From positions 1 to 22,390 of the IMG/VR virus record IMGVR_UViG_3300023119_001112: a DNA stretch of 22,390 nucleotides. One strand, written 5' to 3'. The position numbers were made by a program, and so were the translations under genes. The notes below the pieces were generated by a model. The model had not been told where the DNA came from, did no database searches, and worked only from the letters and a program-made list of their open reading frames with translations. This DNA comes from a virus. Shown piece by piece: positions 8,396-20,785 of this stretch. Numbering within the stretch: the stretch's first letter is position 1; each line of letters opens with the position of its first letter.

Positions 8396-10341
8396 TATGA
8401 GTAACTCGTTGCTGTTCCTAATACTGCTGTCCAGGCACTAGCACCTCTCATAAGTGTAAATGAAATAACGTCAATGCCATTGGCTGTTCCACTAGGTGTA
8501 AAACCATTTTCCCAAAGTATTGTTTGTGTTGCTCCGTCGATTCTTACTGCGTTTGGTATAAATGCCGATGCACCTTGATTTAAAATAAGTGCAACTGAGA
8601 TTGCTTTATTAGCAGTAGTTGGAACATTTGTAAAATCTGCTGTAAAGTTTGATACTATACCTGTGTGAGAAAATAATCCGCTTGAAGTTAAATCATGTGT
8701 AACTACGCTAGTAGCACCAGAAATAGCAGTCATGTGTTCACTAGTTGCTGTGTTGAATGTTACAGTGGCAGTAAATGATGTAAAAGAAGAAAATTCAACA
8801 GGCTGATTTGCAACAATGCCTGTTGAATTTATTGCTAAGTCTGGCCCTGCTCGTCCAGCAGCAGCAAACAGAATATCCTGTTGTGATTTAACACTTACAT
8901 CACTTATAGTATTTTTGTTATTAATAACAATATCACCAGCCGCGGCAGCATCTTGTGATATTTCTACACCAGCTACTCCGCCGCCTCTCATTGCAACAAA
9001 CGCACCGTCAATAGTAACACCACCAGCTACTGCTCCTCCTTGTAATGTTATAAAGTCAGTTGCAATTAAATCTAAATCAGTACCGCTACTAAAAGTAGGA
9101 GTACCAGTTGCTGTTGCTACAAAGCTATCTGCTGTTACTGCACCGGTATACGTACCAGCGCCTGTGATATTAATATCACCTGTGCCTGTTATATCGTTTG
9201 TGTTTAAATCTAAAACACCACCTAACTGCGGAGTTGTATCATTAACTAAGTCTGCATTTAAGTTTGATAAATCTGCAGGAGAAAATGTAAATGCGCCACT
9301 TGTATTATTATAACTTAAACTTCCTCCACCAGATGCGGCTCCAGTTGTAACACTAAAATCAGTTAACTGTGAGTATCCGCTTAGGTTTGCAGGATTGAAC
9401 GTAAACACACCTGTGCCATTGTTGTAAGATAAATTACCTGCACTCTGTGCAGAACCGACAGTTACACTAAATGCCGCCAGTGAAGCGTATGCTGATAAAT
9501 CTGGTGGCGTATATGTAAACACGCCAGTTGTGTTGTCGTATGATATAGCGCCGTCATTACTGGCAGCTGCTGGTGCGCCTATGCTTAGATCAGCAAGCTC
9601 AATACCACCTCCGCCACCGGCAGTAGAACTTGCTATCCACTGTGACCCGTCCCATGCTAGTACATCATTTGATGAAGGATTAGAAATATTTGTGTCTGTT
9701 AAATCGTTTATACTGTAAGTAGCAGTGTTTTGTATTTCTACATTTCCTGATAAGTTAACTACAACATCAACACCAGTACCTCCGACAAAATTAATTATAT
9801 CTTGTCCGCCGTCTACATCAGTTAACGTTAAATCAATACCTGCTGTTGTATTATCTGTAGCTGCTAAGTCATAAGTTGTATTTGTATCAGTGATACCTGA
9901 TACTGTAGCTGCTACCCAATTATTGCCGTCCCATTGTAAAACTTGTCCTATAGTGAGAGGACTTGAAGAAGTATCAACATCTCCAATGTTATCTATTGTA
10001 GTAATATCAACATCAACGCCTTCAAGTAACGCAACTAAGTCAGGAGCGTTTGTTAAATCATTGTAATCGCCGCTGAATAATGTATTGCCAGAATCAGAAA
10101 GTTCGCTAACATCAGTAGGAATAAAAGGAGTATTTGTTAAATCATTATAGTTGCCACTAAAGGTATTTTCAGTAACCCAAATTCTATCAGCTAATGTTAT
10201 ATTATCGGCCTGATTAGCAGTGTATAACCTTAAGGTATTTCTGTCTGCATCAAAGAAAATTTCACCCGATGCTCCGCTGAGTGTATCTAAACTTTGAGAT
10301 GATCTCTTTTGTAATCTTATACTTCGTACTGGTATTGGCAT
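8395..10341 (-). CDS. Tail-fibre-like structural protein, 648 aa
   Basis: This first gene of the late minus-strand operon encodes a repetitive, Asn/Thr/Gly-rich beta protein typical of phage fibres. Two FSG(N/D)YNDLTN(T/A)P units occur at residues 61-72 and 89-100. Two (V/D)VL-x-WDG-x-x-W units occur near 134-143 and 226-236. Three units of the form SY(D/N)N-x-(T/S)G-x-FT(Y/F) recur at exactly 38-residue spacing (267, 305, 343). The N-terminus (MPIPVRSIRLQKRSSQSLDTL) resembles virion-attachment segments I associate with marine phage fibres. The C-terminal half is rich in short beta repeats and ends at SYS, with no chaperone-type autoprotease motif visible. A GATAAATA element and AAAGGA ribosome-binding site precede the ATG. 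The exact virion position is not known. Confidence 0.85.
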   Translation of the reverse strand: MPIPVRSIRLQKRSSQSLDTLSGASGEIFFDADRNTLRLYTANQADNITLADRIWVTENTFSGNYNDLTNTPFIPTDVSELSDSGNTLFSGDYNDLTNAPDLVALLEGVDVDITTIDNIGDVDTSSSPLTIGQVLQWDGNNWVAATVSGITDTNTTYDLAATDNTTAGIDLTLTDVDGGQDIINFVGGTGVDVVVNLSGNVEIQNTATYSINDLTDTNISNPSSNDVLAWDGSQWIASSTAGGGGGIELADLSIGAPAAASNDGAISYDNTTGVFTYTPPDLSAYASLAAFSVTVGSAQSAGNLSYNNGTGVFTFNPANLSGYSQLTDFSVTTGAASGGGSLSYNNTSGAFTFSPADLSNLNADLVNDTTPQLGGVLDLNTNDITGTGDINITGAGTYTGAVTADSFVATATGTPTFSSGTDLDLIATDFITLQGGAVAGGVTIDGAFVAMRGGGVAGVEISQDAAAAGDIVINNKNTISDVSVKSQQDILFAAAGRAGPDLAINSTGIVANQPVEFSSFTSFTATVTFNTATSEHMTAISGATSVVTHDLTSSGLFSHTGIVSNFTADFTNVPTTANKAISVALILNQGASAFIPNAVRIDGATQTILWENGFTPSGTANGIDVISFTLMRGASAWTAVLGTATSYS

Positions 10342-10653: not shown

Positions 10654-12083
10654 TTACCTAAGTTATTTAAAAAATCTCTTAGTTTAGTACTATCAGTTTC
10701 AGCACGTATTTTCTTTGCAGGTTCTCCTTCACCAGGATCTGTATTTACTGTTCCTGAACTACCAGAGGTTGTTGGAGTTCTTTTAAGTGCTGCTGCTATT
10801 GAACTAGACGATCCTCCTAAACCTGCAGACGGTGCTTCTTCAGCGTCATCGCCTAAATCAAAGATTCGCAGTGTGTCTACATCAAACCCTAGATCAATCT
10901 TTTGTCCTACACCACTTGATGAACGTGTCTTCATTAGCTGGATCTGATAACGCCCACGTTCTCGCATAGCACGACTTGTAAAGATACCTATGAGATTGTC
11001 AGCTGTATTAATTTTACTAATACCACCACTAATATGTGAGTGATCAAATTCTATCTCCTCAACTGAACTTCTGTTCAACTGCGATGCTGTAACAAAGATG
11101 CAGTTTAGTTCCATTGCTAAGTTACGTAACTCTTCCGATACATACTTGTCTTTAACAAACAAGTTCTCTGCACTAATCTTTTGTCCGATCGGATGCATCA
11201 AGTCTAGATAGTCTATAAGCAGTACATCTACTTTGCGTCCTGTTTTGATTTCGTACTCTTTCAAATATGCTCTTACATCGTTTGCGTTCTTACCAGTTGG
11301 CATATACTTGACTTGAAATGCACCTGACTTCTTGCCAATCATCTTGACTTTCATTTCAACATCATCAATGCTCTTAAAGATATCACGACTTGGAATCTCC
11401 GATGTCATTGCATCTAGTCGCATACTAACTAAGTTTTCACTAAGTTCGAAAGTTAGATACATCACGTTCATGCCTGCTAAACACCAGTTTACACCCATGT
11501 TCGCCATGAACAAACTCTTGCCAGAACCAGAACCACCTGCAAAGATATTGAGCTCGCCTCTGTTGAATCCACCAAACAGTTTTTTGTCTAGCATCGGCCA
11601 ACCTGTGCTTACTTGTCCGTTCTTGTCTTTGATTGCTTCTAGCCTGCTTCTCGGGTCTGCAAAGTAGTCTGTACCCAGGTCCTTCTGTAAGCCAATCTGT
11701 ACTGCTTTCTTAACAAGGTCCTCAACTGGTCCATACTCACCTTTCTCAAGTAAGTCTGCCGAGTCAAGTATTGCTTTCTCAAGTGCTTTGTGCCTACTGA
11801 ACGTTTCAAACTCCTGTAGAAGCCAGTCATAGTGATTCTCCTGTAACTGTCCTGGATCTTTTAGATTACTATCTGTTGCTGCATTGATCATATCAAACGT
11901 AGGAAGTGCATTATGTTCTTCAACATAATCTTTTAAAAACTTTGCGCTAGTTTGTAACTTGCGATCAAATGTACTTGGATCAAATACACCTTGACATCTA
12001 ACAAACGACTCTGCGTCTGTCATAAACATCTCAAGATATACTTTTTGTATGTCGTATCCGTAATCTGTGTTCTGTCTGCTCAT
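10650..12083 (-). CDS. gp41: Replicative DNA helicase, DnaB/T4 gp41 type, 477 aa
   Basis: The protein unwinds DNA at the phage fork and is expected to work with the primase encoded at 14377-15375. Visible features are an N-terminal helical domain (about 1-140), Walker A GGSGSGKS (183-190) and the catalytic segment TFEL (211-214). The Walker B is VDVLLIDYLDLM (285-296), and a serine- and proline-rich low-complexity linker lies near 415-450 before a charged C-terminal end. Length matches T4 gp41 (about 475). The order domain-RecA core fits the DnaB superfamily, and the phage setting supports gp41. The start is the ATG at 12083, which lies six bases after a perfect -10 box. No Shine-Dalgarno site is present, so a leaderless mRNA is predicted. 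Confidence 0.95.
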   Translation of the reverse strand: MSRQNTDYGYDIQKVYLEMFMTDAESFVRCQGVFDPSTFDRKLQTSAKFLKDYVEEHNALPTFDMINAATDSNLKDPGQLQENHYDWLLQEFETFSRHKALEKAILDSADLLEKGEYGPVEDLVKKAVQIGLQKDLGTDYFADPRSRLEAIKDKNGQVSTGWPMLDKKLFGGFNRGELNIFAGGSGSGKSLFMANMGVNWCLAGMNVMYLTFELSENLVSMRLDAMTSEIPSRDIFKSIDDVEMKVKMIGKKSGAFQVKYMPTGKNANDVRAYLKEYEIKTGRKVDVLLIDYLDLMHPIGQKISAENLFVKDKYVSEELRNLAMELNCIFVTASQLNRSSVEEIEFDHSHISGGISKINTADNLIGIFTSRAMRERGRYQIQLMKTRSSSGVGQKIDLGFDVDTLRIFDLGDDAEEAPSAGLGGSSSSIAAALKRTPTTSGSSGTVNTDPGEGEPAKKIRAETDSTKLRDFLNNLGN

Positions 12084-12089
12084 GTGTAT

Positions 12090-12118
12090 ATTATATAGCC
12101 TTGTATCAGATATGTCAA
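12090..12118 (-). promoter_or_regulatory. Perfect sigma70 promoter of the helicase gene
   Basis: On the minus strand an exact TTGACA (12118-12113), a 17-base spacer and an exact TATAAT (12095-12090) are followed by six bases and the ATG at 12083. Transcription should start at or within a base of the ATG. The TTGACA begins immediately after the TAA stop of the oxygenase gene at 12119, so the 35-base intergenic gap contains only this promoter. It is read by the host sigma70-type polymerase if the consensus holds in the host. Confidence 0.9.
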
Positions 12119-12616: not shown

Positions 12617-14061
12617 ACTTTTACTCCGTACTTCTTTTCAAATTCTTTAGCGTCTGTCAAGTTGTTTACCATTGGTTTACCCTTGATATTGAGCGAAGTA
12701 TTTAACAACATAGGACAGCCAGTTTCTTCATACCAACGTTCTAGCAGTCGTCGTATTCCGCTATCGTCTTTTGGTACCACTTGGACTCTGGATGTACCGT
12801 CTGCGTGTACGATGGCAGGATACAGGTCTGGATTTTTGCAACGGGCGGTAAACTGCATATAACTATTTGCTGGCCCGTCGAACTGTTCGGTATAGTGTTC
12901 ACTGAGCACTGCTGGAGCAAAGGGCCGAAACTTTTGTCTTTGTTTAATAGCGTTGACTCTGTCTTTGATATCGTTTCCGCGTGGGTCTGCGAAAAGGCTA
13001 CGATTACCAAAAGCACGAGGACCGTATTCAGCACGGCCGTTAGCGACTCCACAAATGCCGGTGGCTTGTAGTTCTCGAATTGTTTCTTCAACTGGGTATT
13101 CCCCTTCTATGTTATAGCCCGTAAATACATGCTCCATTGGCATGTGTTCTTTACGATGGGCTAGGACTGCACCAACTGCACTCCCTGCATCTCCTGGATT
13201 AGGCATAATCCATACGTTGTCAAAATACTTGTAAGCTAAATGATTAGCACTACAGTTTAGTGCGCACCCTCCCATTAGAACTAGGTTACGGCTTTTAGTA
13301 TTTTCTTTAGCCCACTTTAATATTTGTTCTAGGGTAAACTCATAACACTTCTGAGTGGCAGCGGCAATGTCAAACATATCCTGCTCCGATGTTAACCTTG
13401 GCTTCCACCAACGGCACCCTCGGTGTAGATTATCTTTGTATCTAACTTTAGGCCCATCTATGTACTCAATCATATCATACATGTCCCACCAAAATCTTCC
13501 CGGGTCACCGTATGCAGCCATACCCATGAGGATGTATTCATCTTCGTTAGGTTTAAGTCCTACTCGTTGTGTGAGTGCTGAGTACCAGAGTCCCACGGAG
13601 TGTGGATATCCTTGTGAATATGTTTTTTTGAGTTTGGATCCTTTACCATGCCAGATAGTAAGTGTATCAAACTCTCCAATTGAGTCGATAACCACACAGC
13701 AGGCTTCGTCAAAAGGACTAGTATAATAACCGGCAGCAGCATGGGAAAGATGATGATCAGTATACCTAATAGGAGCATGTATCCCATAAGATCTAAGATA
13801 CTTACGAATATTGTTTTCACCCAGCCGTAGTCCTTGGCCTGCTCTAAGTTGTCTAAGAGTTTTGATAAAGGGTCTTTCATACCATATAACTTCATCAGGC
13901 TCTCCCCATTGTTTTGCGTACTCTATTAATTTATCATTTAAATGCGCATCATTTTTTACACCACTGAAGCGTTCGCTGTGGCTTGCAAATTCTAATCCAT
14001 CATCTGTAAATACAGCTAGAGCAGCATCATGGCTGTTAGCACTTATGCCCCAAGTAATCAT
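12607..14061 (-). CDS. Carbamoyltransferase, NodU/TobZ family, 484 aa
   Basis: Enzymes of this family transfer carbamoyl from carbamoyl phosphate through a carbamoyl-adenylate to a hydroxyl group. The N-terminal Kae1-like part shows GISANSHDAALAV (5-17), a histidine-rich TDHHLSHAAAGYY (101-113), DEYILMGMAAYGDP, and GGCALNCSANHL. The C-terminal YrdC-like part has NGRAEYGPRAFGNRSLFADPR (about 341-361), FRPFAPAVL and LLNTSLNIKGKPMVN near the end. It is shorter than many bacterial members (about 550-600). I chose the ATG at 14061 because it overlaps the preceding stop as ATGA; an ATG at 14076 would add only MDKRQ. A carbamoylated sugar or nucleotide is the likely product, and the acceptor cannot be inferred. 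Confidence 0.92.
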   Translation of the reverse strand: MITWGISANSHDAALAVFTDDGLEFASHSERFSGVKNDAHLNDKLIEYAKQWGEPDEVIWYERPFIKTLRQLRAGQGLRLGENNIRKYLRSYGIHAPIRYTDHHLSHAAAGYYTSPFDEACCVVIDSIGEFDTLTIWHGKGSKLKKTYSQGYPHSVGLWYSALTQRVGLKPNEDEYILMGMAAYGDPGRFWWDMYDMIEYIDGPKVRYKDNLHRGCRWWKPRLTSEQDMFDIAAATQKCYEFTLEQILKWAKENTKSRNLVLMGGCALNCSANHLAYKYFDNVWIMPNPGDAGSAVGAVLAHRKEHMPMEHVFTGYNIEGEYPVEETIRELQATGICGVANGRAEYGPRAFGNRSLFADPRGNDIKDRVNAIKQRQKFRPFAPAVLSEHYTEQFDGPANSYMQFTARCKNPDLYPAIVHADGTSRVQVVPKDDSGIRRLLERWYEETGCPMLLNTSLNIKGKPMVNNLTDAKEFEKKYGVKVCS

Positions 14062-14270
14062 TTGTCTTTTGTCCAAAGTCTATCTAATATAAAAAACCAT
14101 ACTGCATTTAGTAATGGTTCTACTACTGCATCAGTTATTGCAATATAAAAAGGTGCACCTGTAAAATACATAACGCACATAGCAGCAATAAGGAAGTGTC
14201 CTATTGTGTATATTACAGTACGTAACAATGTGCCCTTTAATGCACTGTATGATGATGTAAATTCGTTCAT
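14058..14270 (-). CDS. DUF2061-type membrane protein, 70 aa
   Basis: The small protein has two hydrophobic segments, about residues 17-37 (TVIYTIGHFLIAAMCVMYF) and 40-60, followed by WFFILDRLWTKDK. The arrangement SALKGTLLRTVIYTIGHFLIA...EPLLNAVWFFILDRLW matches the pattern of DUF2061, whose core is TWRIIA...K..LYYIHERVW. A clearer member is encoded at 20155-20364, so the phage carries two versions. Its start overlaps the preceding small gene as ATGA, and its stop overlaps the carbamoyltransferase start as ATGA. No function is established for the family. An inner-membrane accessory of the neighbouring enzymes is a guess. Confidence 0.75.
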   Translation of the reverse strand: MNEFTSSYSALKGTLLRTVIYTIGHFLIAAMCVMYFTGAPFYIAITDAVVEPLLNAVWFFILDRLWTKDK

Positions 14271-14389
14271 TTATAAATAAATGGATCTGACTTTTTAAGT
14301 TCTTCTAACCGTTTTTTAAGAGCACGATGCTCTTTCCATTTACGATAAGGAGTAGTTAACCAGTACCAAAATTCTTCTAAGTAAACCAT
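14267..14389 (-). CDS. 40-residue basic conserved phage protein
   Basis: A tiny gene fills the gap between the primase and DUF2061 genes. It starts with an ATG at 14389, inside the last codons of the primase gene (13-base overlap), and ends at 14267 in an ATGA overlap with the next ATG. The product begins MVYLEEFWYWLTTPYRKW, continues through KEHRALKKRLEELKK and ends SDPFIYK. It is amphipathic, with an aromatic N-terminal half and a strongly basic predicted helix. I recall similar tiny proteins in T4-like marine phages, without function. Continuous overlap on both sides is the best evidence that it is translated. It may be a small membrane-associated or nucleic-acid-binding peptide, but nothing decides this. 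Confidence 0.8.
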   Translation of the reverse strand: MVYLEEFWYWLTTPYRKWKEHRALKKRLEELKKSDPFIYK

Positions 14390-15375
14390 TTTTTAGCTCT
14401 CAATCTAATTTTAAGTGGAGATTCATCAGCCTGTGTAGCAATACTATGTAGTGTATATAATCGACCATAACGTTGCACAGCATCACCGATATCGTTTATA
14501 TCTTCTGCCCATTCAGGCATACTTACACTGTAACCTAACTCGATAGCACGTTCAACAAGTTTACTACCAGCTTTGTCTCTGTCAGGAACAACAATAATTT
14601 GCTTCTGTAATCTATTTAGTAGCATAGCTTGTTGGTCTGATATTTCTGAGCCGCCTAGTGCGCATCCTTCTACGTGTAGTGCATCTATTTGTCCTTCACA
14701 CACGATAGCAAATACTTTAGTGTGTCGTTGCTCATCTAAGTTAAACACATATCCAGGTTGCACCTCTGTGAGATATTTAGGCTTCTTGTCTGGTGTGATA
14801 GCACGAGCAGTCCAACCTACTATTCTACCTTCATAGTAGAAGGGAATAATAAGTCTATCACGATAACCTAAACTAGGGCTCCAATGATAGTCAATGTCAT
14901 CTATACGTAGATTGCGTTCAAGCATATACTGGAACACATTTACCATACGCTCTGGTATAGTGCCTACTTCTGCCCATTGATGGTCTGCAAGTCTAACAGC
15001 ATCATCTGGCAACGGTACAGTGTTGAACGTAGGCAATTCCGCTATGCGTGTTTGTGCTTGTACACCTTCGTTCTCTCTCATCACTTCAAGTGCCACCTTG
15101 TTGATTACATCGTCAGGCGCTCCGGTCCATTGTAGGAGCCTTCGCATCTTGTGTGAAAAGTTTCTGCCTGGCTGCCAGGATGCTTTAAATCCGCAGTTAA
15201 AACAATGATAACTAACTCCTCCATCTGAGTTAGATATAAGTCCACCGCGTCCTCGAGTGTCTGCTGTGTGTCCGTTATGATGACAACACGGCGCATTAAA
15301 TGATAACCAGCCACTAGGAGTTGATTTCCTCTTAGCAGGTAAGTATGTCAGAACTGTATCGTTTACTACACTCAT
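14377..15375 (-). CDS. gp61: DNA primase, T4 gp61-like, 332 aa
   Basis: The enzyme makes RNA primers at the replication fork and should partner the gp41-type helicase encoded just downstream. An N-terminal zinc-binding domain is visible: Cys30, Cys31 and nearby histidines, then Cys58-x2-Cys61 in YHCFNCGFKA. The TOPRIM catalytic region has Glu227 in VCEGQIDALH, Asp265-x-Asp267 in VVPDRDKAGSK and a third acidic site in WAEDINDIGDAV (289-300). Length is close to T4 gp61 (about 340). The ATG at 15375 lies six bases after a perfect TATAAT box, so a leaderless message is expected. The gene heads an operon running through the 40-residue protein, DUF2061, carbamoyltransferase and oxygenase. Confidence 0.93.
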   Translation of the reverse strand: MSVVNDTVLTYLPAKRKSTPSGWLSFNAPCCHHNGHTADTRGRGGLISNSDGGVSYHCFNCGFKASWQPGRNFSHKMRRLLQWTGAPDDVINKVALEVMRENEGVQAQTRIAELPTFNTVPLPDDAVRLADHQWAEVGTIPERMVNVFQYMLERNLRIDDIDYHWSPSLGYRDRLIIPFYYEGRIVGWTARAITPDKKPKYLTEVQPGYVFNLDEQRHTKVFAIVCEGQIDALHVEGCALGGSEISDQQAMLLNRLQKQIIVVPDRDKAGSKLVERAIELGYSVSMPEWAEDINDIGDAVQRYGRLYTLHSIATQADESPLKIRLRAKKWFT

Positions 15376-15381
15376 ACTATT

Positions 15382-15410
15382 ATTATAGTATCGTTATGTA
15401 GTTGTGTCAA
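15382..15410 (-). promoter_or_regulatory. Perfect sigma70 promoter of the primase operon
   Basis: On the minus strand TTGACA (15410-15405), a 17-base spacer and TATAAT (15387-15382) are exact matches to the consensus. The ATG at 15375 follows after six bases, which places the expected transcript start on the ATG. There is no Shine-Dalgarno site. The architecture is identical to the helicase and TonB-receptor promoters. It drives an operon of five genes to 12119. Confidence 0.9.
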
Positions 15411-15436
15411 GTATTTTTTTTAATATATTAATCCGT

Positions 15437-15586
15437 ATGCAATACACCAAAGTTCTAAACCTAGCTTATAAAGAAGATAGTAAAGAACTGGAGATGCAAC
15501 AAGCACTCCTGGCAAAAACATGGGATGTCTTATTAAGTTTTTCATTAAAAGTACACCTTAAATCCTGCCTTCCAATTACGCCCTAA
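15437..15586 (+). CDS. Possible small protein, 49 aa
   Basis: The only open frame in the gap between the primase promoter and the TonB-receptor stop starts at an ATG at 15437. Its product begins MQYTKVLNLAYKEDSKELE and continues through MQQALLAKTWDVLLSFSLK. The first 36 residues look like a normal charged helical protein. The last 14 codons overlap the 3' end of the receptor gene antisense. A TATATT box (15424-15429) lies seven bases before the ATG with a poor -35 (TTGTGT), and no Shine-Dalgarno site is visible. It may be a small leaderless gene or only a chance frame. Confidence 0.35.
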   Translation: MQYTKVLNLAYKEDSKELEMQQALLAKTWDVLLSFSLKVHLKSCLPITP

Positions 15587-17287
15587 TTGACTGTAACCGT
15601 CAGGTCTTTCATAGTTCTTATCGTTTATATTATACAGTCCTGCAAATATTTCTATGTTGTCTTTTAAATGTTTTAATTCGGCATCATAGGTAATAACAGA
15701 ACTTTTATCAATAGTAGCAAATGTTTTGCTATCAATGTCTTTGTGTTTGCCGTAGTAATTTGCCTTTGTACTATATTCTATACCGTTTATAATTCTAGCT
15801 ACCTTTACATTGCTTGTAAGTTTAGGACGTCTTAATTTTTGTTCGCCATTTGATTTACGTGCATCTGTAAGGGCAACATTGCCTGTAATAAAATAATCAT
15901 TTATACTGTGAGCAACTGTTGTTTCTATACCTTTAGTATATGATTTATCTGCGTCATTAACATATGTTCCATCATATATAATTGCATTAGATTCTTGAGT
16001 TACAAACACTGCTGTATCGAATATATCATTATTATAGCCTAGTTCTAAGCCTATAGTATCTTCTTCTTTTAGATTTGGATTACCTGTAAATCCGTAGTTA
16101 TCTTGTCCATACATTTCGTATAGTGTAGGTACACGATAGCCTAGAGATACACTCCCTCTATAACCGTTTTTATGTAAGCCATATCTACCAGTAACTTTAT
16201 CACCAAAGCCGTCTATACTATCATATCTTATACCTGTTGATATTATAGCGTTGTCATAGGTTTGTATATTTGTATTCACAAACAATCCGTTTGTGTTTCT
16301 AGTTTTGTCAACACTGCTAGTATACGGAAACGCTCCTCTAATGTTAGTTAAGAAGTTTGCATCTACATTTTCGTGTTCTGCTCCTATCGTAACATCGGCT
16401 TTGTTATAATTTAATATATGCGAAACAAGAAACGTATTAGTATTACTTTTATAATTTCCTTCAAGCAATCCGTCTTTTGTGTATGTTCGATTGTGTTTTG
16501 AATTGTTATAAGCAAATCTACTGTTGTTTGTGTTTGCATCAAATTGCAAATTAGTCCAATGCCATTTGCCTACGTAATCTTTTGTATCACTTGTTCCGTC
16601 TAGATTAGAATTGTTTAATTCATTAATATAATTTAATCTATAGTTTGCGTTGTCGCCGTAGTACAAAAAGTTTAAGTTGTAATTTGTACTATCATACGGG
16701 TCAGTTTCAGTGCCGCCCGGATATACACTTATGCCATCTGTTGCTTCTTGCTCTACATTAATTGTATATGATAATCTATCACTTATGTCAGATACTTGTA
16801 TTTTCTGTTTGTTTGTATTATTAGATCCTACACTCAAAGTTGCGTAGGATTCGTGCGATACGTCTGATAATAGATTTATAACTCCTCCCGAAGCATTTGC
16901 TCCGTACACACTGCTCATAGGACCTTTTATAATTTCTACAGAACTTATGCCTGTAAAATTATGCTGGCCAATGTCGTCTGTTCCTGTAGGACTAGAATGA
17001 TCCTTAATAGGTATACCGTTAAGAGTAATTAAATTTTGATCACTATCAGCGCCTCTAATATATAATGAACTTACTTGTCCTTTAGGACCGCTAGTTACAA
17101 TATCTAAATTTACCACATCTTTAATATCTTCTGCTTCTACAAACTCTTGTGTGTAAGTAAAAGGTGCTAGATAAGATGGTGTTCTTTCTGCATATATCCA
17201 AACTTCTAACGGTTCAGATTTTATAGTAGTCGTAAAAAAAGCCGCAACAAAAGTTGCGACTATAGTCAGTATTATTTTATTATTCAT
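15545..17287 (-). CDS. TonB-dependent outer-membrane receptor, 580 aa
   Basis: This is a complete receptor of the BtuB/CirA type, which imports scarce ligands such as cobalamin or metal chelates across the outer membrane using TonB energy. A signal peptide (MNNKIILTIVATFVAAFFTT, cleavage near Ser24-Glu25) is followed by a TonB-box-like EPLEVWIYAER (25-35). The plug domain carries LYIRGADSDQNLITLNGIPI (75-94) and VEIIKGPMSSVYGANASGG (117-135). A beta-barrel follows with the usual PTLYEMYG...GNPNLKEEDTIGLELGY segment. The chain ends in phenylalanine (KAGFKVYF), the standard outer-membrane insertion signal. Length is close to E. coli BtuB (614). There is no frameshift. The ATG lies six bases after a perfect promoter -10 box. 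A phage structural gene precedes it directly, so it appears truly phage-borne. Its ligand cannot be read from sequence. Confidence 0.95.
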   Translation of the reverse strand: MNNKIILTIVATFVAAFFTTTIKSEPLEVWIYAERTPSYLAPFTYTQEFVEAEDIKDVVNLDIVTSGPKGQVSSLYIRGADSDQNLITLNGIPIKDHSSPTGTDDIGQHNFTGISSVEIIKGPMSSVYGANASGGVINLLSDVSHESYATLSVGSNNTNKQKIQVSDISDRLSYTINVEQEATDGISVYPGGTETDPYDSTNYNLNFLYYGDNANYRLNYINELNNSNLDGTSDTKDYVGKWHWTNLQFDANTNNSRFAYNNSKHNRTYTKDGLLEGNYKSNTNTFLVSHILNYNKADVTIGAEHENVDANFLTNIRGAFPYTSSVDKTRNTNGLFVNTNIQTYDNAIISTGIRYDSIDGFGDKVTGRYGLHKNGYRGSVSLGYRVPTLYEMYGQDNYGFTGNPNLKEEDTIGLELGYNNDIFDTAVFVTQESNAIIYDGTYVNDADKSYTKGIETTVAHSINDYFITGNVALTDARKSNGEQKLRRPKLTSNVKVARIINGIEYSTKANYYGKHKDIDSKTFATIDKSSVITYDAELKHLKDNIEIFAGLYNINDKNYERPDGYSQLGRNWKAGFKVYF

Positions 17288-17293
17288 ATCACT

Positions 17294-17322
17294 ATTATAT
17301 AGTAATATTGTTACGTTGTCAA
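17294..17322 (-). promoter_or_regulatory. Perfect sigma70 promoter of the TonB receptor
   Basis: On the minus strand TTGACA (17322-17317), a 17-base spacer and TATAAT (17299-17294) are followed by six bases and the ATG at 17287. TTGACA begins immediately after the TAG stop of the preceding virion gene at 17323. The 35-base gap is thus fully occupied, exactly as at the helicase gene. No ribosome-binding site is present. Confidence 0.92.
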
Positions 17323-18090
17323 CTAGTTTCTGACTAGTATTTTTGTAATTTTATCTGTAGGATCTGTTTCTGTATAAAATCTCAAATAACTATATACACC
17401 GTGGAAGTTTACAGATTTAGGTTCTGTTTCTGTTCCATCAAAGTTAACAGTTACAACATTTGCCCAGCTAGTCTGATTAGTAACTTGATTTTCTAAAGTA
17501 GCTTGTATTACAATATCTCCTGCATAGCTATTAGTATAGAATGCTACTGTATGTAATGCTTCATTTCCGTTAATACCCGGTTCAGCTGTTACTGGTCCTA
17601 TTTCCCAAGCACTATCATCTACTACTGAAACTGTAGACACTTCTTTTTCTTTAACCGGACCTGGCATTGCTTCGTCACTAACAAAAATAGTTCCGTTCAT
17701 TCCAAAATGTTCGTCAGTATATGTTAAAACTGATTCGGAATTATCATTAACTAGATGTACATTATAACTAAAATATTGTTGTTTAAAGTTTAATAAATCA
17801 TTTTGTGTAACAGTAACCTTTACTAATCCTTTTGTAGCATTTACATTAGTGCCGTCGTGTTCTATAACTAATCTTTTATTTTCGTCAAACGCTTGAAATT
17901 TTGTTGTATAATTTGTTAAATCTATCGGCTTTTGATCTGCATTTAAAACTTTAAATTCTAACACATTATCAATGCCTTTATATACGTTTATATTTTTTTG
18001 ATACACTGGTCTATACTCCGTAACGAAACCTGCTTCATTAGCTAGAACTATCGATCTATTTGAGACTAAATATCTAGGTATTAATTGCAT
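17323..18090 (-). CDS. Virion structural protein of T4-like marine phages, 255 aa
   Basis: I chose the ATG at 18090 (MQLIPRYLVSNRSIVLANEAG) over the upstream start at 18144. The extra residues would run across the divergent 18111 gene start and promoter, and MQLIP is the kind of N-terminus I associate with this family. The N-terminal half has VYQKNINVYKGIDNVLEFKVLNADQKPIDLTNYTTKFQAFDE, a beta-rich segment resembling attachment domains of phage tail proteins. It runs to VTVTQNDLLNFKQQYFSYNVHLV. The C-terminal half (about 170-255) is a second beta domain with VAFYTNSYAGDIVIQATLE and SVNFHGVYSYLRFYT. There is no signal peptide. The precise virion location is unknown. A GATAAATAC element lies three bases before the ATG. 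Confidence 0.8.
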   Translation of the reverse strand: MQLIPRYLVSNRSIVLANEAGFVTEYRPVYQKNINVYKGIDNVLEFKVLNADQKPIDLTNYTTKFQAFDENKRLVIEHDGTNVNATKGLVKVTVTQNDLLNFKQQYFSYNVHLVNDNSESVLTYTDEHFGMNGTIFVSDEAMPGPVKEKEVSTVSVVDDSAWEIGPVTAEPGINGNEALHTVAFYTNSYAGDIVIQATLENQVTNQTSWANVVTVNFDGTETEPKSVNFHGVYSYLRFYTETDPTDKITKILVRN

Positions 18091-18102
18091 ACAGTATTTA
18101 TC
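18091..18102 (-). promoter_or_regulatory. Late-type promoter or start element of the 18090 gene
   Basis: On the minus strand GATAAATAC (18102-18094) is followed by TGT and the ATG at 18090. GATAAATACTGTA matches the T4 late consensus TATAAATACTATT in 10 of 13 positions. It is the best late-promoter match among the three TAAATAC-NGT-ATG sites. Transcription would start at about the ATG, and no Shine-Dalgarno site is present. Confidence 0.6.
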
Positions 18103-18110
18103 GGAAAACC

Positions 18111-18482
18111 ATGTTAACAAAGGATATACAAGAAAACTTTCCATTTATTAGTGTTGTTACCTACGGAGGTAACGAATACGTTGGTATTATAGCCAATCAA
18201 GATCAACATGTTACTACAATGTACGTTTTTACGGATTTAAAAACGGATGATCATAAAAGAATGTTTCTAGAAGCAGGCGAAGTATGGTGGTGGGAGTCAA
18301 ATCGAATGATACCTATCAATATCTTTTTAAGAAATGAAATGGAGTTTTTTCGATATTCATTAATAACAATGAATTCAAAAGATGTACGAGTAACAATAGG
18401 GCCTTGCGTTAATTTAAATAATTTAGCTGTAAAAAGAGTTAAACGCAAAAACGTGCAGCTAGTAAAAACGCCAAAAAATTAA
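18111..18482 (+). CDS. Conserved phage protein of unknown function, 123 aa
   Basis: The product starts MLTKDIQENFPFISVVTYGGNEYVGIIANQ and looks like a small beta-barrel. A motif GEVWWWESNRMIPINIFL lies near residues 60-77, and the tail is basic (KRVKRKNVQLVKTPKN). I recall close relatives with the same WWWESNR-x-IPIN motif in T4-like marine phages, without a known function. The SH3-like strand pattern and basic end would suit nucleic-acid binding, but this is inference. The ATG is only 20 bases from the divergent 18090 start, with a weak GGAAAA site. Its stop abuts that of the convergent 18483-19199 gene, with no space for a terminator. Confidence 0.85.
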   Translation: MLTKDIQENFPFISVVTYGGNEYVGIIANQDQHVTTMYVFTDLKTDDHKRMFLEAGEVWWWESNRMIPINIFLRNEMEFFRYSLITMNSKDVRVTIGPCVNLNNLAVKRVKRKNVQLVKTPKN

Positions 18483-19199: not shown

Positions 19200-19752
19200 T
19201 TAATTTCTCACACAATAAATTCATATGCACTACAACAGCCATCGCATAACTTATTGCGTGTGCTTTCTTAAAATAATACTCGTCATTCTCTGGCTTCGTC
19301 CAAACTTCCTTCATTATCTCCGTCCATGTCTTCCCAATCAAATGTCTCTTCGCTGGTCGTATCATAGCAAGGACGGCAGCTAATTGTTCCACGGAAGTAG
19401 GGCAAGTCTGTTTCAGTACATCCGTATGCCCGTTTAAATGAAATAACTGATCCACAAACTCTTCGTGTTGTAGTAGTTTCCATATAGGTTCTTTCTCCAT
19501 AAGTGTAGTTAAATGCTTGTCGTCTTTTACATCTTTGTATATACTAACATTCAAAAAGTCAAGTTTAAAGTAGCCTCTATCTTCTGCTGTTTTGTAGTCA
19601 ATAGTAGATAAGTTATCCACAGGGTTATGAGGAATCTCAGTAACATAGACACCAGTGTTGTGTTTCTTTTCACTGTCAAGTTTAGCAACACGGTGTTGTA
19701 TCTTCGACAACACTATGTCTCTATCTGCAAAGTCTATATCAATATCTGGCAT
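19189..19752 (-). CDS. Miniature DnaE-like (C-family polymerase) protein, 187 aa
   Basis: The sequence resembles a collapsed DNA polymerase III alpha palm region. PDIDIDFADRD (2-12) matches the PDFDVDF motif that carries two catalytic aspartates in DnaE. SEKKHNTGVYV near residue 27-37 matches the KHAGGVV segment. YFKLDFLNVSIYKDV (about 61-75) matches the KFDFLGLRTLT segment with the third aspartate. LFHLNGHTDVLKQTCPTSVEQLAAVLAMIRPAK matches the FQLESxGM...ALxRPG region. FKKAHAISYAMAVVVHMNLL matches FNKSHxxxYALVSYQ. DnaE is about 1160 residues, so fingers, PHP, tau-binding and OB parts are absent. T4-like phages normally replicate with a B-family polymerase; this could be a degenerate or accessory polymerase. 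Activity is unknown. The ATG overlaps the preceding stop as TAATG. Confidence 0.8.
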   Translation of the reverse strand: MPDIDIDFADRDIVLSKIQHRVAKLDSEKKHNTGVYVTEIPHNPVDNLSTIDYKTAEDRGYFKLDFLNVSIYKDVKDDKHLTTLMEKEPIWKLLQHEEFVDQLFHLNGHTDVLKQTCPTSVEQLAAVLAMIRPAKRHLIGKTWTEIMKEVWTKPENDEYYFKKAHAISYAMAVVVHMNLLCEKLNGN

Positions 19753-20162
19753 TAAAGTTTGCCTTCCTCTCTTAGTTTAGCTCTAATTTGTGTTGCACTA
19801 ATATTATGGATTTCTTCTCCTAAATCGTGTTGTGTAAATGTATAACCTACGCCACGTCCATAACTGATGTCTACAATATTAGGAACTTTCATTATAACAT
19901 ATTCGTTACCATATATAAAGCCTGCTTCTGCTAATCCCATCTCAATATTGTTATAAACTTCTTCAAAATCAAATGGATTATCGTCTTGTGCAACTGTACG
20001 TCCAGCGCCTGCATCTTGTCCTATAATACCACCTACATCGCGAATCATAATACACACTTGTCCTGTTTCGAGCAATGCTTTCTTAAACAATGCTGTGTGG
20101 CCATCATGCCACGGTTGCCAACGTCCTAACATCTGTGCTGTCGGCTTTTTCCAATCAAACAT
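19752..20162 (-). CDS. HIGH-type nucleotidyltransferase, 136 aa
   Basis: The protein belongs to the HIGH-motif nucleotidyltransferase superfamily, which attaches AMP or CMP to a phosphate group. GRWQPWHDGHTALFKKAL carries the nucleotide-binding HxGH-like motif, and ISATQIRAKLREEGKL near the C-terminus is the matching ISxTxIR motif. NMN adenylyltransferase, phosphoglycerol or phosphopantetheine-type transferases and ATP-sulfurylase-like enzymes all share these features, so the substrate is uncertain. I chose the ATG at 20162 because GGAG lies six bases upstream (20172-20169); the ATG at 20174 would lose that site. It follows APS-kinase-like and DUF2061 genes with overlap, which hints at a sulfate or sugar-activation role. 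Confidence 0.85.
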   Translation of the reverse strand: MFDWKKPTAQMLGRWQPWHDGHTALFKKALLETGQVCIMIRDVGGIIGQDAGAGRTVAQDDNPFDFEEVYNNIEMGLAEAGFIYGNEYVIMKVPNIVDISYGRGVGYTFTQHDLGEEIHNISATQIRAKLREEGKL

Positions 20163-20364
20163 CTTTAACTCCATATTTTATATGTTTGTACCAAACTCGT
20201 TCGTGTATATAATACAAAACAAATTTAATAATTAGATCAGCTACGAAAACAGCCCCAACTGCTTTCGGAGGTAATCCAAATGCGTATGCAATTATTGCAG
20301 TCACTATACTTGCAATAATGCGCCAAGTTATTGCCTTGGCTAAGTGTCTACTCTTTGTTACCAT
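20155..20364 (-). CDS. DUF2061 membrane protein, 69 aa
   Basis: The sequence SRHLAKAITWRIIASIVTAIIAYAFG...KAVGAVFVADLIIKFVLYYIHERVWYK is a clear DUF2061 member: a TWRIIA helix, a second hydrophobic helix, and the terminal YYIHERVW signature. It should be a small inner-membrane protein with two membrane segments (about 13-29 and 36-52). I chose the ATG at 20364 over the in-frame TTG at 20388; GGTGG lies just upstream. DUF2061 is known to occur near or fused to adenylylsulfate kinases in bacteria, and here it overlaps the end of such a kinase gene. A divergent second copy is encoded at 14058-14270. The biochemical role is unknown. Confidence 0.9.
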   Translation of the reverse strand: MVTKSRHLAKAITWRIIASIVTAIIAYAFGLPPKAVGAVFVADLIIKFVLYYIHERVWYKHIKYGVKDV

Positions 20365-20785
20365 AGTCCACCATATACTTAGATACAATTTTTACAAGTT
20401 GCTCGTGTGTGTCATCAAACCATTCAGCAACGTGATAGTCGTATTGTCCTTTGTCCAAAGGAACATACATTGCATTAGTATCTTCAAACCTACCTTCTTT
20501 GATAGTGTCCATCCATACTACATAGTCAGCACCAAACTCGTCACGTGCTTGTGGAGTAGGAGCAACAAAATCTGCTACTGCAATCTTTCCCGCCTTTACT
20601 ACACCATCTGCTAGATGACGCATACGTTGAGCTTGTCTAATACGTCCTTCGGGTGTAAAATCCCAATCGTCGTATTCTTTTCTTACTGCATCTGCATTAA
20701 GATGTACTGCACCGATTAACTGTGCAAACGGAGCAGCTAAGGTGGTTTTTCCGCTTCCGGGTAAACCACATATTAGTATTTTCAT
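20348..20785 (-). CDS. Adenylylsulfate-kinase-like P-loop kinase, 145 aa
   Basis: The P-loop GLPGSGKT (7-14) is followed by HLNADAVRKEYDDWDFTPEGRIRQAQRMRHLADGVVKAG and ADFVAPTPQARDEFGADYVVWMDT. These match the order of CysC motifs: DGDxxR, the F-x-x-x-(D/E)-R segment, the alanine-rich helix and the SPxxxxR segment. A typical APS kinase phosphorylates adenylylsulfate to PAPS, the sulfate donor. GRFEDTNAMYVPL near residue 98 occupies the usual lid position. At 145 residues it is shorter than CysC (about 200). It could instead phosphorylate another small substrate. The start overlaps the preceding gene as ATGA, and the end overlaps the DUF2061 gene. Confidence 0.8.
   Translation of the reverse strand: MKILICGLPGSGKTTLAAPFAQLIGAVHLNADAVRKEYDDWDFTPEGRIRQAQRMRHLADGVVKAGKIAVADFVAPTPQARDEFGADYVVWMDTIKEGRFEDTNAMYVPLDKGQYDYHVAEWFDDTHEQLVKIVSKYMVDYGNKE

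Follow-up and report, generated by a model that had tools for sequence, protein, structure and literature searches.

The window analysed here, a stretch of 22,390 bases that makes up the IMG/VR virus record IMGVR_UViG_3300023119_001112, contains an intact open reading frame on the minus strand (15545..17287) that begins with ATG and encodes a BtuB-like TonB-dependent receptor (TBDR) of 580 residues. An earlier sequence-only reading had placed a phage-encoded receptor here, and we confirmed its coordinates, strand and start codon, as well as the authenticity of the phage contig. The neighbors of the receptor in the window are phage genes, encoding a DnaB-like helicase, a primase, a BppU-like/virion structural protein, a subtilisin-like protein and a carbamoyltransferase of a marine phage type. 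A chimeric assembly of receptor and phage genes, which the same reading had named as one outcome that would overturn it, was ruled out because two contigs from separate metagenomes, L001 (16.8 kb matched, 99.96%) and L002 (13 kb matched, 99.98%), are collinear with the window.

On its left the receptor gene is flanked by the BppU-like gene (17323..18144, minus strand; PF10651 at 26.9 bits, phrog_14467) and on its right, beyond a short second gene, by the primase gene (14377..15375, minus strand; phrog_47), a backbone gene of the jumbo phage group with at least 565 relatives in viral contigs. That the receptor is an insert between phage genes was thus borne out for the flanks, which are of phage type, and amended for the insert, which also holds a 41-residue ORF (15420..15545, minus strand; MKNLIRHPMFLPGVLVASPVLYYLLYKLGLELWCIAYGLIY) with a single transmembrane segment and a start that overlaps the receptor stop (TAATG). 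Two other observations were made in the window. The kinase family phrog_10255 (19752-20785) is spread over two ORFs, 20348-20785 and 19752-20174, which flank a membrane ORF of 77 aa (20155-20388), representing a split or interrupted gene, and a 70-aa membrane protein with a DUF2061 match (PF09834, 28.4 bits) is encoded at 14058-14270, adjoining the carbamoyltransferase.

Jumbo phages related to the window, with contigs of up to 357 kb, have a conserved backbone of pol-like, BppU-like, primase and helicase genes, and one relative of 115 kb (G002) carries a terminase large subunit and a tail tube. Among 80 loci fetched by their primase, 79 had both the BppU-like gene and the primase, and in five of these, all in the clade of the window, the receptor was located between them. 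In most loci lacking the receptor the stop codon of the BppU-like gene is followed directly by the primase promoter, and a few slots held other cargo, such as small ORFs or genes for a radical-SAM-like or a glycosyltransferase-like protein. Of the fetched relatives without a receptor, L218 is the nearest, its primase sharing 93% identity with that of the window. As the slot is usually free of the receptor, we consider the receptor to be optional cargo with its own promoter.

The sequence-only reading had also described the receptor promoter as matching those of the primase and helicase genes, and this was upheld, which supports expression of the receptor in the manner of phage genes. The window has exactly three occurrences of TTGACA-N16..18-TATAAT-N5..8-ATG, upstream of the receptor (17285..17322, with spacings of N17 and N6), the primase (15373..15410, at the right edge of the cargo slot) and the helicase (12081..12118), all on the minus strand, compared with a mean of 0.003 in 300 dinucleotide shuffles; in all three the TTGACA and TATAAT boxes are 17 bases apart. 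Since the -10 box is about six bases from the ATG, the predicted transcription start coincides with the start codon or adjoins it, which suggests, from the motif, that the messages of this phage group are leaderless. The same close spacing of -10 box and ATG was observed at the receptor genes of window-clade homologs and at the primase genes of relatives of the window.

The receptor matched the Pfam models Plug (54 bits) and TonB_dep_Rec_b-barrel (76 bits), both above the curated cut-off. Its AlphaFold model (mean pLDDT 86.9, pTM 0.86), which supplied the structure prediction that the sequence-only reading had called for, has an N-terminal plug and a beta barrel, with low confidence at residues 17-37. 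The 12 best fold matches in the PDB by Foldseek were all to BtuB of E. coli, either as a structure or as a model (highest TM 0.84), and BtuB was also the best PDB match by sequence, at an overall identity of about 20-25%. With a TM of about 0.8 to BtuB over the full length, the model agrees with the TBDR architecture of a plug in a 22-strand barrel, that number describing the architecture and not an exact count of strands in the model. The best NCBIfam model for the receptor was TIGR01779 (TonB-B12) at 134.8 bits, and the same model was best, by a wide margin and below its cut-off, in three phage lineages. Because the cut-off of TIGR01779 is 599.7 bits, we refer to the receptor as BtuB-like and not as a BtuB equivalog.

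The receptor had been described as complete, and most of its elements were indeed identified. Its N-terminus resembles a signal peptide as read from the sequence (residues 1-24, 17216..17287, minus strand), being hydrophobic and ending in TTIKSEP, and is followed by a TonB-box-like segment, LEVWIYA (residues 27-33, 17189..17209, minus strand), that aligns with LVVTA of BtuB and that most members of the phage family keep as L[EV][IV]xI[YT]A. Plug, barrel and a C-terminal Phe are likewise in place. The exception is in the plug, whose core (residues 61-136, 16880..17107, minus strand) is matched by PF07715 from profile position 35 onward: alignment with cellular BtuBs showed that the helix equivalent to WQSTSVNDVLRR of BtuB, normally located just before the core, is missing. 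These approximately 12 residues are conserved in cellular TBDRs and absent from almost all of the phage receptors, an absence that could alter gating or TonB-driven opening.

Residues of the calcium/cobalamin-binding loops are partly retained. In E. coli BtuB the loop acids are D179, D193, D195, D230 and D241, and the phage residues aligned to them are S, E, D, D and D/N, respectively. The S/E/D/D pattern is also found in most of the cellular BtuBs whose genes bear a riboswitch (see below), with which the phage receptors also share an Arg corresponding to R497 of BtuB and the loop motif TDGIS..E.D..LD.

Scans of viral contigs yielded 15 loci at first and then 73, and intact homologs of the receptor were found in at least 70 viral contigs. 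The matched frames had no internal stop, and the proteins had hydrophobic N-termini and, when complete, lengths of 563-620 aa, the exceptions being fragments at contig ends. Among ten members of the window type, pairwise dN/dS was 0.08-0.2, with one pair at 0.30; the receptor is under purifying selection. Phage and cellular receptors (30 dereplicated and 18 sequences, respectively) were split at 100/100 support in a tree, which answered the question of clustering that the sequence-only reading had raised in favor of a phage-only clade. The N-terminal parts of the L015 and L014 receptors are nearly identical and their C-terminal parts divergent, a pattern that suggests recombination inside the gene.

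Cellular proteins were distant, with a best identity of about 28% over a whole-length alignment and a best profile score of 189 bits in 296 Bacteroidota genomes, versus 852 bits for contig L017 (PACV01000025.1), the sole match of the genome-wide scan among the matches listed. L017 carries tail-fibre and tail-fibre-assembly genes and is for that reason regarded as a phage contig binned in a Flavobacteriaceae MAG. The cellular sampling excludes marine Pseudomonadota genomes, so that the statement that there is no close cellular homolog is provisional. A TBDR match in INPHARED was found on inspection to be a bacterial chromosome filed as a phage, and two other full-length INPHARED TBDRs were in Salmonella records with an annotated 16S rRNA gene alongside. 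The region in L103 (CAKLQH020000002.1, “Acinetobacter phage MD-2021a”) is bacterial chromosome, with a btuB preceded by a riboswitch and with trp genes, and represents, like the binning of L017, a filing error.

These data bear on the possibility that the receptor is a functionless product of recent host capture or of chimeric assembly. The optional presence of the gene in the phage group is in keeping with such an origin. It is nevertheless highly improbable, given intact frames in at least 70 contigs, the low dN/dS, the phage-only clade and collinear contigs from independent metagenomes. A recent host gene, which the sequence-only reading had thought the less likely source, is ruled out on the present sampling, the phage-type promoters pointing the same way.

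We also considered that the receptor-like protein might be a structural or adsorption component of the phage and not a receptor of the host membrane. In two lineages it adjoins BppU-like and tail-fibre genes, and a TBDR has been annotated among the structural genes of Polarivirus skadi (PMC10504331). Its neighbors in other lineages are, however, non-structural, and nearly all members keep the signal-like N-terminus, the terminal aromatic residue and the TonB-box-like segment, making a structural role very doubtful.

Several lines of evidence link the family to cobalamin. All 17 of the nearest cellular TBDR relatives scanned have a cobalamin riboswitch (RF00174), compared with six of 20 lower-scoring Bacteroidota TBDRs. 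One phage contig, L078, which carries baseplate and virion genes, has an AdoCbl-II riboswitch (9835-9915, plus strand; 78.4 bits against a gathering score of 36.5) located between a consensus promoter and the ribosome-binding site of its receptor gene. The leader of the window receptor contained no cobalamin riboswitch, even at lax thresholds. Three sister phages have a glutamine (glnA) riboswitch upstream of the receptor region (L076:9443-9490, L062:9373-9419 and L058:9440-9487), and a relative of the window has one near the contig end (L115:13288-13335). We do not regard them as regulators of the receptor because in L076 the riboswitch precedes a separate small ORF, as read from the sequence.

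A second link is DUF6580 (PF20221), which is found in most phage lineages carrying the receptor and whose gene, in 44 locus rows, lies next to that of the receptor or overlaps it, with scores of 58-151 bits in sister phages, above the gathering score. Its predicted model is a bundle of six membrane-length helices, and in structural comparison the model came closest to ECF S-components and to cyanocobalamin-bound BtuM (8c7p; probability 0.96, TM 0.53), the matches to S-components having weak E-values (0.2-0.5). One Bacteroidota BtuB in our set also has DUF6580 next door, and when 20 cellular DUF6580 loci were sampled, eight had a cobalamin riboswitch no more than 5 kb away. That the receptor so often adjoins a gene for an inner-membrane transporter-like protein suggests that these large aquatic phages boost B12 import in infected cells. 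DUF6580 does not adjoin the receptor in the window clade, and in the available sequence of the window lineage, including its best relative of 115 kb, we found no DUF6580, cobalamin riboswitch or B12-binding protein. In L021 (11788-13074) and its relatives L022, L029, L046 and L053, a tripartite tricarboxylate transporter permease, TctA (197 bits), was observed directly after the receptor.

Enzymes that could use the vitamin are also encoded by some of these phages. Of 34 viral records with the receptor, 14 had B12-binding domains (11 of them above cut-off), compared with 2 of 19 jumbo relatives that lack it, a set of comparable total length; this difference is only suggestive because the two groups differ in lineage. 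The proteins are of the radical-SAM type and nearest to the KedN5 or PhpK methyltransferase families, below their cut-offs; among 50,697 phage records, a KedN5-like phage protein gave two matches only, both of them weak. Radical-SAM proteins encoded near the receptor, most with a B12-binding domain, were noted at L021:1106-6957, L077:13884-15665, L078:2304-4220 and L017:4278-5498. A search for B12-dependent ribonucleotide reductase with TIGR02505 matched none of 33 records, and sub-cut-off matches to TIGR02504 in L106 and L108 were class Ia NrdA, which argues against nucleotide reduction as the B12 sink in these two sister phages; a B12-dependent reductase was accordingly rejected as the source of B12 demand for the phages examined.

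In the window clade the place beside the receptor is taken by the 41-aa microprotein, which is present in all window-clade loci and is located upstream of the receptor in two other clades. No Pfam family was matched, and its pooled pN/pS was 0.34. Every locus with intact flanks had either DUF6580 or the microprotein and never both, with three changes on the tree, which suggests that the two are interchangeable partners. The microprotein family extends to 59 viral contigs (including L309-L353) from diverse large phages, its members being 35-45 aa in length with a single transmembrane segment and the motif LELWC[IL]AYG. It also adjoins a second, shorter type of phage TBDR, a porin and small exported proteins, and its occurrence beside these other exported-protein genes weakens the case for a B12-specific partner; it may accompany exported phage proteins in general. 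The second TBDR type (~485-523 aa; L313:1289-2758, L326:4048-5616, L349:4099-5553 and relatives) lies directly after the microprotein, and has a plug domain above cut-off, a TonB box like EIVVTSAP and scores of 55-71 bits to the window receptor family. The porin (PF13609, 68 bits; L329:4788-5666) is of the Gram-negative type and was observed near the microprotein in a 139-kb viral contig.

Three functions had been offered for the receptor by the sequence-only reading: superinfection exclusion, nutrient import and a decoy. Of these, nutrient import has the most evidence behind it, and the BtuB-like family and fold, the riboswitches of cellular relatives, DUF6580, the AdoCbl-II riboswitch and the B12-binding enzymes allow the nutrient to be specified further as cobalamin or a related corrinoid. 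We think it probable that the receptor is an accessory, moron-type BtuB-like TBDR of a jumbo phage that imports cobalamin or a related corrinoid in the infected cell. Counting against this reading are the low identity to BtuB and the TIGR01779 score below cut-off, the failure to find DUF6580, a cobalamin riboswitch or a B12-binding protein in the available sequence of the window lineage, the class Ia reductases of two sister phages, the missing plug helix and the weak E-values of the DUF6580 fold matches. Import of another scarce nutrient by a receptor of BtuB shape, be it haem, a siderophore or a different metal complex, appears unlikely; family predicts TBDR specificity poorly, and the haem model TIGR01785 was third-best for the window receptor, yet the B12 links agree across fold, cellular relatives, partner gene and riboswitch.

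For exclusion and the decoy we found nothing directly in favor. Here the receptor would displace or compete with the host receptor of rival phages or colicin-like toxins, or occupy TonB, or, shed after lysis, mop up phages. BtuB and other TBDRs are common phage receptors (e.g., PMC8624392), the gene is optional cargo adjoining tail and adhesion-type genes, and deletion of the plug helix could mean changed transport. Such a role, however, predicts neither the coupling with DUF6580, the AdoCbl riboswitch nor the co-occurring B12-binding enzymes. Moreover, the loop acidic residues and plug residues are invariant in 31 divergent phage receptors, where a decoy should follow a changing rival. We therefore rate these functions as improbable, to about the same degree as uptake of another nutrient.

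If the receptor does import corrinoids, the infected cell would export it to the outer membrane via the host Sec and BAM machinery, where it would use the host TonB-ExbBD to move cobalamin or a related corrinoid into the periplasm. For import across the inner membrane, sister phages with a DUF6580 gene would rely on its product and the window lineage on host transporters, perhaps aided by the coupled microprotein. The extra corrinoid could then benefit infection by feeding cobalamin-dependent reactions, such as methyl transfer and related metabolism of the host, and may also serve the phage-encoded B12-binding radical-SAM enzymes of sister phages. We tentatively propose, as a possibility somewhat short of even, a two-membrane B12 module that feeds the phage radical-SAM enzymes and is composed of the BtuB-like receptor and DUF6580, in one phage with an AdoCbl riboswitch, in which the translationally coupled microprotein of ~40 aa replaces DUF6580 in the window and two other lineages.

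Vitamin B12 is limiting for many aquatic bacteria. If corrinoid import is correct, phages would control vitamin traffic in the cells they infect and could compete for dissolved B12. The system would also be a natural experiment on the interplay of outer-membrane receptors, phage adsorption and nutrient uptake, and compact, divergent BtuB-like receptors with a shortened plug offer material for studies of TonB-dependent opening. Accessory transport genes and TBDR annotations are already known from phages; the BtuB-like family is apparently new, as the open-access literature, with subscription papers and preprints largely outside the search, gave no report on BtuB-like receptors or DUF6580 in phages, or on the microprotein.

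Among known systems, BtuB of E. coli (TIGR01779; PDB 1nqg, 1nqh, 2gsk) is the closest, as the best PDB match in both sequence and fold, in the position of the TonB-box-like segment and, in part, in the loop acidic residues, and the nearest cellular relatives of the phage receptor are riboswitch-controlled. The phage receptor differs from BtuB in its identity of only ~20% in structural alignment, the loss of the 12-residue plug helix and the replacement of D179 by Ser and D193 by Glu; it is virus-encoded, and in the window lineage has a phage promoter and no riboswitch. The megaphage Mar_Mega_1 has a SusC-type TBDR proposed to raise nutrient (carbohydrate) uptake (PMC9723777) and resembles our phages in having a TBDR gene in a large marine phage, but its receptor is of another subfamily, with carbohydrate as the proposed substrate and no B12 partner reported. 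It is probably the SusC protein of an uncultured marine phage (805 aa, 12% identity, TM 0.67) that was the one other real TBDR in a viral fold library. BtuM, a solitary S-component-like B12 transporter (PMC6072759; 8c7p), is comparable to DUF6580, a small six-helix inner-membrane protein with an S-component-like predicted fold whose gene adjoins the BtuB-like gene in sister phages, whereas no sequence match to BtuM was found for DUF6580, its TM is only 0.53, and it is absent beside the receptor of the window lineage. Finally, the receptor shares with the auxiliary metabolic genes and morons of marine phages a host-type function, an optional slot and its own promoter, and differs from them in that the cargo here is probably an outer-membrane receptor for a vitamin, accompanied by a membrane partner of its own.
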